This document shows, in pieces, positions 55,760 to 60,940 of a stretch of DNA of 64,000 nucleotides (position 1 is the first letter of the stretch; the number at the start of each line of letters is the position of its first letter). Both the position numbers and the translations under genes were made by a program. This DNA is from Anaerolineae bacterium (GTDB lineage Bacteria; Chloroflexota; Anaerolineae; Aggregatilineales; Aggregatilineaceae). Where the stretch lies: positions 62,001 to 126,000 of the forward strand of contig JAHDLB010000004.1 in NCBI GenBank assembly GCA_018432315.1, read 5' to 3'. The notes under the pieces are model-generated. The model saw only the letters and a list, made by a program, of their open reading frames with translations, was not told the origin of the DNA and searched no databases.

Positions 55760-56140
55760 ATGAGCACGCAAGAATCGAACGCCCACCAGGGGCGCCTGGA
55801 TCACCAACTGGCCTATTGGGACCAGTTTCGCCGGGCGCAGCCGCTCGACGACGCGCGCGACGTGGAGTTGTTCCCGCTCTCCGGCAAGGGGACGGTCTAC
55901 AGTTTCACCACCGTGACCACGCCCGCCGAAGCGTTCGAGCCGTTCGCGCCGTACCTGCTGGCCCTGGTGCAGCTCGACGAAGGGCCGGTCGTCACCGCCC
56001 AGCTCACGGACGTCGACGGCCCGGTCGAGATCGGGATGCGCGTCGAGATGGTGATCCGCAAGCTGCGCACCGATGGCAGCCGCGGGATCATCGTCTACGG
56101 GCCCAAGTTCCGGCCCCTCATGCGCCCCGCGACCGGCTAG
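55760..56140 (+). CDS. DUF35-type OB-fold protein
   Basis: A 126-residue protein whose core is the OB-fold half of DUF35: 'ELFPLSGKGTVYSFTTVTTPAEAFEPFAPYLLALVQLDEGPVVTAQLTDV', then 'VEIGMRVEMVIRKLRTDGSRGIIVYGPKFRP'. 'GKGTVYSFTTV...PYLLALVQLDEG' is the family's signature. DUF35 proteins partner thiolases or acyl-CoA/polyketide enzymes; no thiolase is in the window. The zinc ribbon usually fused to the N-terminus appears here as the separate upstream gene. A terminator follows. Confidence 0.85.
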   Translation: MSTQESNAHQGRLDHQLAYWDQFRRAQPLDDARDVELFPLSGKGTVYSFTTVTTPAEAFEPFAPYLLALVQLDEGPVVTAQLTDVDGPVEIGMRVEMVIRKLRTDGSRGIIVYGPKFRPLMRPATG

Positions 56141-56273: not shown

Positions 56274-56963
56274 ATGTGCATGGCCTCATCCGACCCCGGA
56301 TTCTCGCTCGCCGACCGGCTCGGACACCTGCCGTACTTCAGGGCGCTCTCGCCCGCGCGGGTGGACGCGCTGGCCCGTCACGCCGCGTGCCGCCACTTCG
56401 CCGCCCAGGAGACGATCCTGGTGCAGGGCGAGCACCACACCGGCCTGTGGGTGATCGAATCGGGACAGGTCAAGGTCTTCCGGCTGAGCGCCGATGGCCG
56501 CGAGCACATCGTCCACCTGCTCGGCTCCGGCGAGTCGTTCAACGACATCCCCGCGCTCGATGGCGGCCCGGCGGCGGCGCACGCCGTCGCGCTCACCCCG
56601 GTGATCGCCTGGATGCTGCCGCCCGACGCGCTGGTCGACGCGCTGCGCGCCGACCCCGACCTGGCCGTCGCGGTGATCGAAATCCTCACCGGGCGCATGC
56701 GCGAGCTGGTCCAGCAGATCGAAGACCTGGCGCTGTGCTCGGTCACGGCGCGGCTGGCGCGCTACCTGCTCAAGCAGAGCGACAGCCAGGCGCCCAACAG
56801 CCCCGCCGTCACGCGCGCGACGCTGGCCGCTCACCTCGCCACCACGCCCGAAACGGTCAGCCGGGCGCTGCGCACGCTGGAGCAGATCGACGCGATCCGG
56901 TTCGACCGGCACGAGATCGCCATCCTGCGGCCCGACCTGCTGCACGCCGTCGCCATGGATTGA
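56274..56963 (+). CDS. Crp/Fnr-family transcription regulator
   Basis: A 229-residue regulator. Residues about 20-130 form the cyclic-nucleotide-type beta barrel ('LGHLPYFRALSPARVDALARHA', 'ETILVQGEHHTGLWVIESGQVKVFRLSADG'), then the dimer helix, and a C-terminal winged helix with the recognition helix 'TTPETVSRALRTLEQ'. The E-x-x-S-R pattern there is that of FNR/DNR/NnrR, which read TTGAT. The FNR N-terminal Cys cluster is absent; only scattered Cys remain, so it probably senses heme/NO or another ligand, not iron-sulfur. RBS AGGACGGA precedes the ATG at 56274. A perfect FNR box lies just downstream. Confidence 0.9.
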   Translation: MCMASSDPGFSLADRLGHLPYFRALSPARVDALARHAACRHFAAQETILVQGEHHTGLWVIESGQVKVFRLSADGREHIVHLLGSGESFNDIPALDGGPAAAHAVALTPVIAWMLPPDALVDALRADPDLAVAVIEILTGRMRELVQQIEDLALCSVTARLARYLLKQSDSQAPNSPAVTRATLAAHLATTPETVSRALRTLEQIDAIRFDRHEIAILRPDLLHAVAMD

Positions 56964-56977
56964 CCGGCGGCCCTCTC

Positions 56978-56991
56978 TTGATCCAGATCAA
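56978..56991. promoter_or_regulatory. Perfect FNR-type operator
   Basis: TTGATCCAGATCAA matches TTGAT-N4-ATCAA exactly. Centred at 56984.5. TACGCT at 57014-57019 would be a fitting -10 for class II activation (site centred at about -41.5), giving a start near 57026, upstream of ferredoxin at 57054. The regulator gene ends 14 bases before it. Confidence 0.75.
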
Positions 56992-57053
56992 TGCTCTGTC
57001 AGCCGTTTTCGATTACGCTGGTCATACGGTTATCTAGTGGCAGGTGAAGCCTG

Positions 57054-57290
57054 GTGGATCGCGCCTGGATCCCCCAAATCGACCGGCGGAAGTGCACCGC
57101 GTGCGGAGACTGCATCGAGCGGTGCCCGACCGGGGCGCTCGGAATGGTCGCCGGCAAAGCGGCGGTGATCCGTCCGGACGCCTGCACCTATTCGGCCATC
57201 TGCGAGGCCGTCTGCCCGGTGGGGGCCATCGAGCTGCCTTACCTGATCCGGTGGGACGACGGCGATTCCGATCCCCAGGACGGCAGTTAG
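57054..57290 (+). CDS. Small ferredoxin, second iron-sulfur motif altered
   Basis: A 78-residue ferredoxin. The first motif is complete: CTACGDCIERCP (C-x2-C-x2-C-x3-CP). The second reads CTYSAICEAVCP, so the second of four Cys is Ser; this suggests one [4Fe-4S] plus a [3Fe-4S] or a labile cluster. GTG start at 57054, chosen since it directly precedes the conserved 'IDRRKCTACGDC'. It leads the apparent redox operon and sits just after the FNR box. Confidence 0.88.
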   Translation: MDRAWIPQIDRRKCTACGDCIERCPTGALGMVAGKAAVIRPDACTYSAICEAVCPVGAIELPYLIRWDDGDSDPQDGS

Positions 57291-57355
57291 CCGGGCGCAG
57301 CACCCGCGCCAGAAAGGAGCTGTCCGATCGCGTTTCGACACCAGAGCGTCATCCC

Positions 57356-57376
57356 GCAGACGCCGCCCCATCCCGG
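57356..57376 (+). terminator. Weak hairpin between ferredoxin and cupin
   Basis: Short stem CCCC/GGGG around ATCC, followed by five T. The 125-base interval holds nothing else I can support; partial readthrough is likely if the genes form an operon. Confidence 0.3.
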
Positions 57377-57416
57377 GGTTTTTGTGCTTGGGATCTGAGA
57401 ACGGTAAAGGGAGGTT

Positions 57417-57758
57417 ATGACGTCGTACACCTATTTCGACAGCATCATCGAGTCCGTGCCGGAAATCCTGGACGACAGCATCATCAGCCGGACGCTGCAC
57501 GCTGACGATCACATCAAGGTCGTGGTCTTCGGGTTTGCGACCGGCCAGGAACTTTCGGAGCACACATCGTCGCAGCCGGCGATCATCGAGTTCGTTCAGG
57601 GCGAAGCGACCGTCACCCTGGGGGATGACGTCCATCACGCTCGCCCCGGAACGTGGATTCACATGCCGCCCAAGATGCCGCACAAAATCACGGCGACATC
57701 GCCCGTGATCATGCTGTTGACCCTGCTGCGGTCGGGCGCGGTGGATCCGAGCGACTAA
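57417..57758 (+). CDS. Cupin-fold protein
   Basis: A 113-residue single cupin. Motif 1 is read in 'FATGQELSEHTSSQPAIIEFVQGEATVTLGDDVHHA' (with H and E at the metal positions, though the usual second His is absent), motif 2 in 'PGTWIHMPPKMPHKI'. Probably a small metal- or ligand-binding protein. AAGGGAGG precedes the ATG; the octaheme cytochrome gene starts 22 bases after its stop. A sensory or accessory role in the same operon is inferred. Confidence 0.82.
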   Translation: MTSYTYFDSIIESVPEILDDSIISRTLHADDHIKVVVFGFATGQELSEHTSSQPAIIEFVQGEATVTLGDDVHHARPGTWIHMPPKMPHKITATSPVIMLLTLLRSGAVDPSD

Positions 57759-57780
57759 TTACACGCGTGAAGGGGGAAAC

Positions 57781-59172
57781 ATGACCGAACAACCACAATC
57801 GACCGCCTCGAACGGTTGGCGGAGCTGGATCACCGCCGGGCGCGTGTTGATCATCGGCCTGGTGGGTGTGATCATCGTCCTCGGCCTGATCCTGATCATC
57901 ACCGCCGTCGAAGAAGCGGACAAGGCCGCCGAAGGGCGCGAGCGGGTCGACGCGCTCGCCAACAGCGACGACTCCTGCGTGCAGTGTCACCGCCGCACCA
58001 CGCCGGGGATCGTCCAGCAGTACGGCTTCAGCACCATGGCCGCGGCGAACGTCGCGTGCGTGGACTGCCACGAAGTAGACTCGAATTATGCCGGCGCGGT
58101 CGAACACGAGGGCACCTACGTGCTGGCCTCGCCCACGACCGCCATGTGTGAGACCTGCCACCAAAAAGAGGTTCGAGAATTTTACGCCAGCCGCCACTCC
58201 ATCCCCGCCTACGTGGCGATGGTGGGCCTGGAGGGTATCTCGGAGGACCTGCTCGCCCGGTACGAAGCGATCCCCGAAGCCGCCGTCAAGCCCAACGAGA
58301 TGCGCAACTCGCTGCACGCCATCGAAGGGCCGGCGGTGACGCGCTTCGCCTGCGAGAGCTGCCATAACATCGGCAAGCCCGCCGAGGACGGATCGATCGG
58401 CCAGTGCCAGAAATGCCACCTGCGCCACGAGTTCAGCCTGGAGCAGGTGCGCAAGCCCGAAACGTGCAACGCCTGCCACATCGGCCCCGACCATCCGCAG
58501 TGGGAGATCTACGTCGAGTCGCCGCACGGCATCGCGTATCACACCGGCGGCGAATACTGGAACTGGGACGCCGAAGCGGGCACCCTGACCGTCGAGGACT
58601 TCCCCGCGCCAACCTGCGCGATCTGCCACATGAGCGGCTTTGGTTCCACCGGCACGACGCACGACATCGGCGACCGCCTGACGTGGTACCTGTTCCAGCC
58701 GATCAGCGAGCGCCGCCCAAGCTGGCAGGACAACCTGGTGCGCATGCAGAACGTGTGCCTGGAATGCCACAACACCAACTTCATCGAAGGCTTCTACGCC
58801 GATTTCGACGACCTGGTGGGCGCGATCAACAACTGGGTCGAGGTCAGCGACGAGATGATCGCCCCGCTCAAGGAGCAGGGCCTGATGTCGCCGGAGCCGT
58901 TCGACGAGCCGATCGACTTCGTGTACTTCGAGCTGTGGCACCACTGGGGCCGCACGGCCAAGTTCGGCGCGTCGATGCAGGGGCCGGACTATACGCAGTG
59001 GCACGGCGCCTATGAAATGCTCAAGGAACTGGAAGAGCTCGAAGAACTGGTGAACGGCAAGCTCTCTGGCGAGATTCCGGCGGTCAGCCCGCGCGTGGTG
59101 AACGATGGCGTCGCCAGCCCGCCGCCGCTGGAAGAAGCGCCGGAAGAAGCCGAAGCGCCCGCATCCGAGTGA
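57781..59172 (+). CDS. Membrane-anchored octaheme cytochrome c, hydroxylamine oxidoreductase (HAO) family-like
   Basis: A 463-residue protein. An N-terminal membrane helix (about 21-43) anchors it outside the cytoplasm. Eight CxxCH heme motifs start at residues 66, 93, 123, 191, 209, 229, 279 and 326 (CVQCH, CVDCH, CETCH, CESCH, CQKCH, CNACH, CAICH, CLECH). The number, spacing and the C-terminal 'FGASMQGPDYTQWHGAYEMLKELEEL' helix-rich region fit the octaheme HAO family (Multi-haem_cyto), which includes oxidative HAO and reductive nitrite/hydroxylamine reductases. Whether a Tyr cross-links the catalytic heme cannot be judged by eye. It follows the cupin by 22 bases, with AAGGGGGAAAC before the ATG. 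Confidence 0.9.
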   Translation: MTEQPQSTASNGWRSWITAGRVLIIGLVGVIIVLGLILIITAVEEADKAAEGRERVDALANSDDSCVQCHRRTTPGIVQQYGFSTMAAANVACVDCHEVDSNYAGAVEHEGTYVLASPTTAMCETCHQKEVREFYASRHSIPAYVAMVGLEGISEDLLARYEAIPEAAVKPNEMRNSLHAIEGPAVTRFACESCHNIGKPAEDGSIGQCQKCHLRHEFSLEQVRKPETCNACHIGPDHPQWEIYVESPHGIAYHTGGEYWNWDAEAGTLTVEDFPAPTCAICHMSGFGSTGTTHDIGDRLTWYLFQPISERRPSWQDNLVRMQNVCLECHNTNFIEGFYADFDDLVGAINNWVEVSDEMIAPLKEQGLMSPEPFDEPIDFVYFELWHHWGRTAKFGASMQGPDYTQWHGAYEMLKELEELEELVNGKLSGEIPAVSPRVVNDGVASPPPLEEAPEEAEAPASE

Positions 59173-59183
59173 GTGAGGTGGCT

Positions 59184-60098
59184 ATGTACCACCTGGCAAC
59201 CATGGCGCCGCCCATCCAGCGCATCAAGATCCCGTTCTCGCGCGATCAGGTCATGCTGTTGATGGCGGCCATCAACGAGATTTTTCTGGGCATCGACATC
59301 TACCTGGCCCACAGCATCAGCGGCACGATTGTGCCCTACGAATGGATCCCGATCATCTTCGGGCCCGTCGCGGGGGCGGTGCTGCTGGTCGCCGGGCTGA
59401 TCGCGATCAAACAGCGCGAGACGGCCACTGTGCTGGCGACGCTGGTCCTGCTGGGCAGCATCATCGTCGGCGTGCTGGGCGCCTACTTCCACCTGGAACG
59501 CGCCGCCCTGCCCGCCGGCCCCGAAGGCGAGAGCCTGACGGTGCGGCTGCTGGTGTGGGGGCCGCCCGTGCTCGGCCCGCTCATGTTCGCGATGACGGGC
59601 CTGCTGGGCATCAGCGCGGCCTGGGTCGAAGATCCGCCGGACAGCGGGCGGCTGCGGCTGTTGTTTGGCCGGACCCTGCGGCTGCCGCTGCCCAAGACGC
59701 GCGCCTACTTCCTGATCGTCTCGCTCGGCTCGCTCGCCACCGTGTTGAGCGCCGTGCTGGACCACGCGCGCACCGGGTACGAAAACGGCTGGCTGTGGAT
59801 CCCAACCGTGGTCGGCGTGTTCGCCACCGTCGTCGCCGCGACGATGGGCGCCATCGAGCGGCCCACGCGCAGCGACCTGTGGACCTACACGGTCGCGATG
59901 CTGCTCATGATCCTCACAGGCGTGGTGGGCGCCGCCCTGCACGTGGACGACAACCTGACCTCGCGCGGCGCGTTCGTCGCCGAGCGGTTCATCCGGGGCG
60001 CGCCGTTCCTGGCGCCGCTGTTGTTCGCGAATCTCGGCTCGCTGGGCCTGTTCGTGCTGCTCGATCCGCGCTCGGAAACGCTGCGCGACGAGTCCTGA
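59184..60098 (+). CDS. Polytopic membrane protein downstream of octaheme cytochrome
   Basis: A 304-residue integral membrane protein with about eight helices ('LMAAINEIFLGIDIYLAHSISG', 'WIPIIFGPVAGAVLLVAGLIAI', 'LLGSIIVGVLGAYFHLERAALP', 'FLIVSLGSLATVLSAVLDHART', 'MLLMILTGVVGAALHVDDNL'). It has His residues inside or at the edge of helices (H in LAHS, FHLE, LDHA, LHVD), which could be heme or quinone sites. I do not recognise the family. ATG at 59184 follows GAGGTGG; the gene starts 11 bases after the cytochrome stop, so it likely anchors or feeds electrons to it. Confidence 0.7.
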   Translation: MYHLATMAPPIQRIKIPFSRDQVMLLMAAINEIFLGIDIYLAHSISGTIVPYEWIPIIFGPVAGAVLLVAGLIAIKQRETATVLATLVLLGSIIVGVLGAYFHLERAALPAGPEGESLTVRLLVWGPPVLGPLMFAMTGLLGISAAWVEDPPDSGRLRLLFGRTLRLPLPKTRAYFLIVSLGSLATVLSAVLDHARTGYENGWLWIPTVVGVFATVVAATMGAIERPTRSDLWTYTVAMLLMILTGVVGAALHVDDNLTSRGAFVAERFIRGAPFLAPLLFANLGSLGLFVLLDPRSETLRDES

Positions 60099-60104
60099 CC
60101 GTCG

Positions 60105-60140
60105 GCGCCTCCCCCGGTCTGTTCAGGCCGGGGGAGGCGC
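60105..60140 (+). terminator. Long GC hairpin before DUF166
   Basis: Perfect 13-bp stem (GCGCCTCCCCCGG/CCGGGGGAGGCGC) with a 10-base loop and no U-run. It lies between the membrane protein and the DUF166 gene; an RNA end or attenuator is possible. Confidence 0.5.
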
Positions 60141-60163
60141 TCACTCTGGAGCAAAGATAAACT

Positions 60164-60940
60164 ATGCGCCTGCTGGTCCTGGTGACCGGAGAATATGGCT
60201 GGCGTCACGTCGATAACATCCGCCGCCACGCCCCGCCGGGCTGGGAGGTCGCGACGTGGCAGACGCCCAAAGTCCTGCCGCCCGTGCTGGACTATCCCGA
60301 AGACCACCTGCCGGACGCGCTGCCGCCGTGCGACCTGATCCTCTCGCTGGCCGAGGTCAAGGGCGTCGCGGAGATGATCCCCGAGATCGCGCAGATGACC
60401 GGCGCGCAGGCCGTCATCGCCCCGATCGACAACGTGGCGTGGCTGCCGGTGGGGCTGGCCCGCCAGCTTGGCGAATGGCTGGCGCGGATCGAGGTGGCGT
60501 GCGTGACGCCCAAGCCGTTCTGCTCGCTCACCGCCACCCACACCAACGCGCTGCGCCAGCGCGTGCCGTACCGGGCGCACCCGCTGATCGCGGCGTTCGC
60601 GGAGCACTTCGGCCAGCCCGCGTTTCGCGCCACCGTGGACGAGCGCACCCGGCAGATCGTCGCGCTGGACGTGGTCCGCGATGCGGGCTGCGGCTGCGCG
60701 CGCTACGTGGCCGAACGGCTGGCCGGCACCCCGGTGGACGAGGCGATCGAGGCGGGCGGCCTGCACCACCACCATTACCCTTGCCAGGCCAGCATGGGCA
60801 TCGATCCGCAGTACGGCGACACGCTGATGCACGTCTCCGGCAACATCATGAAAGACGCGCTCCGCGAGGCGCTGGAGCCGCACCTGCAAACGCGCTACGT
60901 CCGGCCCACCGGGTACAGCGAGGCGGACGATCCCGCCTGA
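60164..60940 (+). CDS. DUF166-family protein (thymidylate synthase-like fold)
   Basis: A 258-residue cytoplasmic protein. The start 'MRLLVLVTGEYGWRHVDNIRRHAPPGWEV', 'CDLILSLAEVKGVAEMIPEIAQMTGAQAVIAPIDNVAWLP' and the Cys-rich end ('KPFCSLTA', 'DAGCGCARYVAERL', 'HHHHYPCQASMGID') match DUF166, a family best known in methanogens and other anaerobes. The four or more Cys and the HHHHYP cluster suggest metal or iron-sulfur binding. Function unknown. GGAG precedes the ATG. A 65-base gap with a hairpin separates it from the membrane protein gene. Confidence 0.8.
   Translation: MRLLVLVTGEYGWRHVDNIRRHAPPGWEVATWQTPKVLPPVLDYPEDHLPDALPPCDLILSLAEVKGVAEMIPEIAQMTGAQAVIAPIDNVAWLPVGLARQLGEWLARIEVACVTPKPFCSLTATHTNALRQRVPYRAHPLIAAFAEHFGQPAFRATVDERTRQIVALDVVRDAGCGCARYVAERLAGTPVDEAIEAGGLHHHHYPCQASMGIDPQYGDTLMHVSGNIMKDALREALEPHLQTRYVRPTGYSEADDPA

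Follow-up and report, generated by a model that had tools for sequence, protein, structure and literature searches.

A conserved gene pair of an octaheme HAO-type cytochrome and an unnamed eight-helix membrane protein is a candidate nitrite reductase of bacteria without NrfA

Positions 56274-60940 of a 64,000-nucleotide stretch from an Anaerolineae bacterium (assembly GCA_018432315.1, contig JAHDLB010000004.1, positions 62,001 to 126,000; hereafter the window) hold a group of genes that an earlier reading of the letters, the original prediction, took for a possible FNR-controlled redox operon. We found that the conserved unit in this region is a pair of genes only: one encodes an octaheme cytochrome c of the HAO type and the other a protein with eight transmembrane (TM) helices. 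On balance, we consider it fairly probable that this pair is a quinol-fed reductase of nitrite (or of nitric oxide (NO) or hydroxylamine) that replaces NrfHA. The genes named in the original prediction are all present and, as it stated, lie in one direction, on the plus strand (open reading frame list and Pfam/NCBIfam searches; Table 1), in a source genome of 5.69 Mb that is 99% complete.

To describe the conservation of the pair, we used 61 genomes, the source genome and 60 relatives, of which 29 have the cytochrome (a match of 31% over 91 residues in G038 and a weak second match in G014 were left out of this count), as well as 99 distinct loci that include the named set and from which 10 duplicate loci had been removed beforehand. 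The neighbourhood recurs in relatives, so that the lack of conservation which the original prediction named as its refutation did not occur: the membrane gene lies directly 3' of the cytochrome gene in 28/28 loci of order-level relatives, and adjoins it in 75 of the 99 distinct loci. The 24 loci without the membrane gene consist of two truncated at a contig end (L063, L114), two from Dehalococcoidia and 20 that form a separate branch. In a cytochrome tree of 59 rows (58 of the 80 named loci and the window, built by a quick method with SH-aLRT support only, L118 being a long branch), the membrane partner is present in 37 of the 39 rows of one clade and in none of the 20 rows of the sister clade, and this label needs two changes on the tree. 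The pair was found in Chloroflexota, Bacillota (Desulfosporosinus), Bacteroidota and Planctomycetota, and in single metagenome-assembled genomes (MAGs) labelled Sumerlaeota and Gemmatimonadota that may be mis-binned. It is common near the genome of the window and uncommon across the phylum. One Desulfosporosinus genome holds a decayed copy of the cytochrome and membrane genes (L179:3242-4517), on a contig that also has a Crp/Fnr gene.

The original prediction described the cytochrome as an HAO-like protein with eight hemes, and the Pfam match, the alignment to NeHAO and the fold comparisons agree with this. The cytochrome has eight CxxCH motifs, and 8 hemes are found in 28 of the 29 orthologues, the remaining one being cut at a contig end. 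The solved structure closest to the predicted model (pLDDT 88.0) is the Ignicoccus octaheme cytochrome 4qo5 (Z 30.2, root-mean-square deviation (rmsd) 2.7, 357 residues), followed by HAO-type enzymes of Kuenenia, Nitrosomonas and Brocadia (Z 22.7-25.0). As ONR and NrfA reached at most Z 11.1, an identity of either type was rejected; a Pfam search gave no PF02335 (NrfA) match, and under NF052343 (hydrazine dehydrogenase, HDH) the cytochrome scored 78.8 bits, far from the curated cut-off of 900. Its heme-4 motif aligns with that of HAO, where it belongs to the catalytic (P460) heme, and so does the Asp-His pair that comes after it, which in HAO lies at the active heme. Both the motif and Asp237-His238 are invariant in 59/59 cytochromes. 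The sequence alignments to NeHAO end before the position of the cross-linking Tyr. The cytochrome has Tyr404 near this region, which is kept in 57/59 (Phe in L104 and L116), while 4qo5 has a Trp in the region; the C-terminal G-x-D-aromatic loop is as in 4qo5. By sequence and fold comparisons, the order of its CxxCH motifs and the Asp-His pair, the cytochrome belongs to the octaheme HAO-type family. As far as these comparisons reach, the second refutation named in the original prediction, a place outside that family, did not occur either. Its nearest named relatives are from Anaerolineae and other Chloroflexota MAGs. The model contains an N-terminal helix at about residues 13-50, by which the cytochrome is probably anchored to the membrane.

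A polytopic membrane protein with histidines was part of the original prediction and is present, although its membership of a widespread family had gone unnoticed. The model of this protein (pLDDT 88.4, pTM 0.88) has eight long helices, and the homology between its two halves (hhalign probability 99.5, E 3e-22) makes it a tandem repeat of a 4-TM unit. In each unit, the first and the third helix have one His apiece, close to the helix end, so that the invariant histidines lie in helices 1, 3, 5 and 7. These residues (H48, H108, H199 and H258) are invariant in 45 octaheme partners (44 of the 80 named loci and the window), and in 55/55 sequences after ten distant homologues were added, with L141 excluded from the latter count for its broken frame. 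Nothing in Pfam matched the protein above threshold, neither NCBIfam nor the PDB sequences gave a match, and its distant homologues matched nothing in Pfam or NCBIfam either. A PDB profile search returned only receptor and hydrolase matches at E 0.02 or worse, and Foldseek with the model returned nothing at E <=0.001. In a VIA structural comparison, the sole outlier among the matches listed was 3dby, an uncharacterised tandem four-helix bundle from Bacillus (Z 15.5, rmsd 3.6, 223 residues; next best 9.4), which Foldseek did not support at E <=0.001. The family is thus unnamed by the libraries searched (Pfam, NCBIfam) and is a new element of the system. Judging from the model, the paired TM histidines resemble those of di-heme b subunits of the quinol oxidase type, and the protein may carry heme b and a quinol site. 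Its charge distribution leans weakly towards a cytoplasmic N-terminus, from which a position of the histidines at the outer face would follow. The partner has no NapC/NirT match and no CxxCH, which bears out the statement in the original prediction that no NrfH-type quinol dehydrogenase lies beside the cytochrome.

Next, we focused on the other partners of the membrane protein. A search of 400 phylum genomes matched 34, of which 3 have orthologues and 31 weaker homologues. All 11 of the weaker Chloroflexota loci that were fetched (of 31; L136-L145 and L147, two of which run off contig ends) have the order membrane gene, gluconate 2-dehydrogenase subunit 3, GMC dehydrogenase; the family names were verified with Pfam in L136 and L139. 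Among plasmids, the membrane protein of the window had no match, and the distant homologue from L136 matched 27 records. Seven of the eight plasmid stretches that we opened contain the same trio (L169, L171-L176; Granulicella, Deinococcus peraridilitoris, Paraburkholderia, Burkholderia, Bradyrhizobium, Komagataeibacter and Lichenicola), so that the hosts span Acidobacteriota, Deinococcota and Pseudomonadota. The trio of Granulicella has one extra small gene, subunit 3 and the oxidoreductase of Komagataeibacter are annotated merely as hypothetical and putative, and the eighth stretch, from Deinococcus AJ005, holds two short pieces and a GMC gene. The membrane-protein homologue is annotated either as 'hypothetical protein' or as 'putative membrane protein' in seven plasmid records, and comes after a thiamine pyrophosphate (TPP) enzyme gene and an enolase-like gene in the plasmid GMC operons. 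GMC-type complexes normally use a multiheme cytochrome c as electron-accepting subunit. The plasmid stretches, for which the gene tables are incomplete, list no cytochrome c subunit. Desulfosporosinus acididurans has three copies of the membrane protein, two beside octaheme cytochromes and one, a paralogue, beside a monoheme cytochrome c (L178:6584-7918), which is a possible third kind of partner.

In the sister clade, 8/20 octaheme cytochromes have a NapC/NirT-like cytochrome as their neighbour (Pfam family confirmed for three). A longer NNT protein adjoins the octaheme cytochrome in L131, and the neighbour in L128 combines nine hemes with a cytochrome b561 domain. In L119, from a Nitrospinaceae MAG, the octaheme gene comes directly after genes for a Rieske protein and cytochrome b (L119:6416-9425). 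As sister cytochromes often neighbour NapC/NirT cytochromes instead, the membrane protein seems, from gene order, to fill the slot of the quinol dehydrogenase. Because it swaps with quinol-linked modules and serves unrelated redox enzymes, we read it as an electron-transfer module, and its family is probably an overlooked route that feeds electrons from the membrane to different redox enzymes. A more specific proposal, to which we give even weight for and against, is that the 8-TM protein is the first of a class of membrane quinone oxidoreductase subunits that has not been recognised before. It would consist of a duplicated 4-TM bundle with one His pair, and probably one heme b, in each half, and would, across six phyla or more, be interchangeable among an octaheme nitrogen-oxide reductase, GMC flavin dehydrogenases and a small cytochrome c. 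A group of Chloroflexota (29 of the 61 genomes around that of the window) and the Desulfosporosinus without NrfA would then have a route of ammonification that goes uncounted in surveys of nrfA and onr.

The role in nitrogen compounds that the original prediction suggested is supported by the distribution of NrfA and by a regulatory box shared with nirK. NrfA is found in 15 and the cytochrome in 29 of the 61 genomes, with an overlap of 0 (hypergeometric P = 8e-6; like those below, this value treats genomes as independent and ignores phylogeny, many genomes being incomplete and related, which counts against the reading). The two enzymes both occur, in different genomes, within 5/8 families, and the source genome has 0 NrfA (PF02335) matches at E <=1e-20. 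Among 29 genomes of the genus of Desulfosporosinus metallidurans, 16 have the cytochrome, 12 have NrfA and 2 have both (P = 7e-4); this count rests on the cytochrome, the membrane gene having been checked in part of these genomes. The narG gene occurs in 7/61 genomes (6 over the curated cut-off), all of which have the cytochrome (P = 0.0036). D. acididurans, with two octaheme pairs, D. metallidurans and strain BG all carry the pair. According to a published table (PMC10949509), D. acididurans reduces nitrite and is NrfA-negative; the other two are NrfA-negative as well, and their nitrite reduction is entered there as not determined. PMC5317091 describes a Caldithrix octaheme enzyme without the cross-linking Tyr and reports that no NrfAH was found there.

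The perfect FNR box of the original prediction, TTGATCCAGATCAA, is the only one in the window, where a scan allowing at most one mismatch gave 3 matches and 0.40 were expected. Six perfect TTGAT-N4-ATCAA sites occur in the whole 5.69-Mb genome, compared with 0 for a reversed-pattern control. The identical 14-mer is present at three sites, which belong to this operon, to nirK (contig C29) and to a gene for a YwiC-like membrane protein (C9:8879-8892; L149:1501). The nirK site keeps the order of regulator, box and target, as the box lies between nirK and a paralogous regulator that is 49% identical to that of the window. In the 99 loci, the 216 kb upstream of the cytochrome hold 15 perfect boxes and the other 1,125 kb hold 5 (about 15-fold denser upstream), while five scrambled motifs together gave 2 upstream and 3 elsewhere. 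The box is more than chance. In other genomes, a YwiC-like gene lies directly 3' of the membrane gene (L044, L046 and L100). The original prediction was right about the regulator in that it has Crp/Fnr domains and keeps a recognition helix of the ExxSR type (PETVSR); its suggestion of low oxygen as the signal is not supported. The only cysteines, in the protein read from 56280, are at positions 37 and 153, and comparison with the ligand positions of E. coli FNR shows that the N-terminal cluster cysteines are absent; an O2-sensing Fe-S FNR was therefore rejected. Under the NCBIfam Fnr model the regulator scored 28.6 bits versus a cut-off of 228. DNR-type proteins sense NO or nitrite, and as the regulator is without the FNR cluster cysteines, its sensing of NO or nitrite appears more likely than that of O2.

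Our proposal is that the cytochrome joins the 8-TM protein in a respiratory reductase bound to the membrane, which would stand in for NrfHA. The 8-TM protein would draw electrons from the quinol pool, pass them through hemes, probably of b type, held by its His pairs (one pair per 4-TM repeat), and hand them to the extracytoplasmic octaheme cytochrome. With heme 4 as its active site, the latter would reduce nitrite in the direction of ammonium, and probably NO and hydroxylamine as well. A DNR-like Crp/Fnr regulator that does not sense O2 may act at the TTGAT-N4-ATCAA box to switch on the operon, nirK and the YwiC-like gene together.

Several observations weigh against this reading, in addition to the relatedness of the genomes behind the P-values. 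The orthologous membrane gene is present in just 3/400 evenly drawn phylum genomes, and two Dehalococcoidia (L094, L096) have the cytochrome without it. The box lies within 2.6 kb upstream in 14/99 distinct loci and a regulator homologue is found in 11/99. Two genomes of the Desulfosporosinus set carry both enzymes, and 1 of the 16 cytochromes in that set is a fragment; for Desulfosporosinus, the authors of PMC10949509 consider AsrABC, a NirB-like protein and Hcp. Of the cytochrome genomes, 22/29 have no narG (Nap was not searched for), and nirK shows no association with the cytochrome (8/15; P = 0.77). There is little strength in the positive-inside signal that would place the histidines on the outer side.

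Of the alternatives, detoxification survives best, although we think it unlikely. The same complex would then scavenge NO, hydroxylamine or nitrite from NarG and NirK and have little role in growth, in keeping with the box that is shared with nirK, the same kind of regulator at that gene and the position of nirK close to the pair in L037 and L070. Octaheme cytochromes are also said to have a broad substrate specificity (PMC5276818). However, the exclusion of NrfA suits the functional replacement of an ammonifying reductase, and a membrane quinol module suits respiration better, even if it leaves room for scavenging. We strongly doubt a second alternative, in which the membrane protein carries no electrons and instead helps to assemble its partner or to deliver heme to it. 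Its four invariant histidines could handle heme and it adjoins c-type cytochromes, but it also partners a flavin GMC dehydrogenase in plasmid stretches in which no cytochrome c is listed (gene tables incomplete), and NapC/NirT or bc-type modules often take its place in the sister clade.

It is very improbable that the enzyme is oxidative, with hydroxylamine or hydrazine as its substrate and the membrane protein reducing quinone. HAO and HDH share the fold, and the GMC operons should send electrons from the dehydrogenase into the membrane protein; yet the best fold match is the Ignicoccus cytochrome and not HAO or HDH, the HDH score is far below its cut-off, and the box shared with nirK, the NrfA exclusion and the narG association all point away from oxidation. 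Reduction is favoured over oxidation. We give equally little credence to a reductase of a non-nitrogen substrate (sulfite, tetrathionate or an extracellular acceptor), since the promiscuity of multiheme cytochromes, the sulfate reduction of the Desulfosporosinus hosts and the lack of narG in most cytochrome genomes are set against the box common to nirK and ywiC, the clustering of these genes with the pair and the exclusion of NrfA in two phyla.

Table 1. Coordinates, in the window, of the gene pair and the features around it.
Feature	Position	Strand	Evidence and remarks
Crp/Fnr-superfamily regulator, 227 aa	56280..56963	+	Pfam cNMP_binding 3.9e-21, HTH_Crp_2 3.3e-13; alternative ATG at 56274
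FNR/DNR-type palindrome TTGATCCAGATCAA	56978..56991	none	Motif scan; 14 bp past regulator, 62 bp ahead of ferredoxin start
Small 2[4Fe-4S]-like ferredoxin	57054..57290	+	Fer4 family matches; accessory, seldom conserved
Single-domain cupin	57417..57758	+	PF07883 3.8e-8; accessory
Octaheme HAO-type cytochrome c, 463 aa	57781..59172	+	PF13447 (Multi-haem_cyto) 1.3e-26; eight CxxCH
Cytochrome heme 4 motif CESCH, residues 191-195	58351..58365	+	Alignment to NeHAO 229-233
Cytochrome Asp237-His238	58489..58494	+	Aligns with Asp-His pair of HAO
8-TM membrane partner	59169..60098	+	Adjacency, predicted model, internal repeat; start overlaps cytochrome gene end
Codon, invariant His48 of membrane protein	59310..59312	+	
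Codon, invariant His108 of membrane protein	59490..59492	+	
Codon, invariant His199 of membrane protein	59763..59765	+	
Codon, invariant His258 of membrane protein	59940..59942	+	
DUF166 gene	60164..60940	+	Pfam

The remaining genes of the region show little conservation. The six-gene operon of the original prediction was rejected as a conserved unit, since only the cytochrome and the membrane protein recur: in the 99 distinct loci, a regulator homologue lies near the cytochrome in 11 (8 of these on the same strand), a cupin in 11 and a ferredoxin in 2, counts that are affected by short upstream sequence in some loci. A cupin is also present in D. acididurans and in one Acidobacteriota locus without the membrane partner. 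In translation, the first cluster motif of the ferredoxin is complete and the second has Ser in place of its second Cys. A relative has ferredoxin and cupin fused into one protein (L036:13285-13878), with Thr at the position of this Ser. As L036 is thus also without that Cys, the altered motif is not a one-off. DUF166, counted as following the operon in the original prediction, and a downstream ferritin lie at least 3.8 kb from the cytochrome start in the relatives that have them (L036, L038, L039), so that both were rejected as members of the system; from its placement, DUF166 looks like a passenger. Upstream, a ChsH2-type OB-fold protein (55760-56137) also occurs near the cytochrome in L031, L034 and L035 (same strand) and L038 (opposite strand), and is a local neighbour rather than a clear part of the system. 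A PF00115 search of the source genome for an NO reductase returned a single full-length match to the oxidase family, together with two short COX1-family fragments in reversed order on contig C17 (C17:60146-60850).

We found no description of the gene pair or of the membrane family among the open-access literature matches listed, subscription journals and preprints being outside the search. If the proposal is true, the pair is a candidate nitrite reductase for bacteria without NrfA, and it would make ammonification visible in genomes that are missed by surveys of nrfA and onr, the two genes that were screened in PMC10716430. It would also give a name to a membrane electron-transfer module, now annotated as hypothetical, that connects redox enzymes of very different kinds with the membrane. 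Both the nitrite reductase and the membrane module can be tested in cultured strains.

The cytochrome is most similar to that of Ignicoccus hospitalis (4qo5), epsilon-HAO and the anammox HAOr (6h5l), with which it shares eight CxxCH motifs in register and the HAO fold (Z 30.2 to 4qo5 and 24.9 to 6h5l). Epsilon-HAO and HAOr are octaheme nitrite reductases said to be without the cross-linking tyrosine. Unlike these proteins, the cytochrome of the window is shorter and has a predicted N-terminal anchor helix, and its partner is the 8-TM protein rather than a NapC/NrfH-type cytochrome. NrfHA matches the pair in its proposed role, from quinol to nitrite, and proposed niche, and is largely mutually exclusive with the pair. 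It differs in that the catalytic subunit of the window is of the HAO type (Z 22.7-30.2 versus at most 11.1) and the membrane subunit has neither a NapC/NirT match nor CxxCH. In complexes of the membrane gluconate 2-dehydrogenase type, genes for homologues of the membrane protein adjoin GMC and PF13618 genes. There, a membrane protein with four histidines would take the place of the usual multiheme cytochrome c, whereas the enzyme of the window is a cytochrome and not a flavoprotein. Finally, DNR/NnrR-type regulons, which govern nitrite and NO reduction, resemble the window in their Crp/Fnr regulator with an ExxSR helix, the TTGAT-N4-ATCAA box and a nirK with the same box. This likeness is one of helix and box, and unlike in those regulons, the target in the window includes an octaheme operon.

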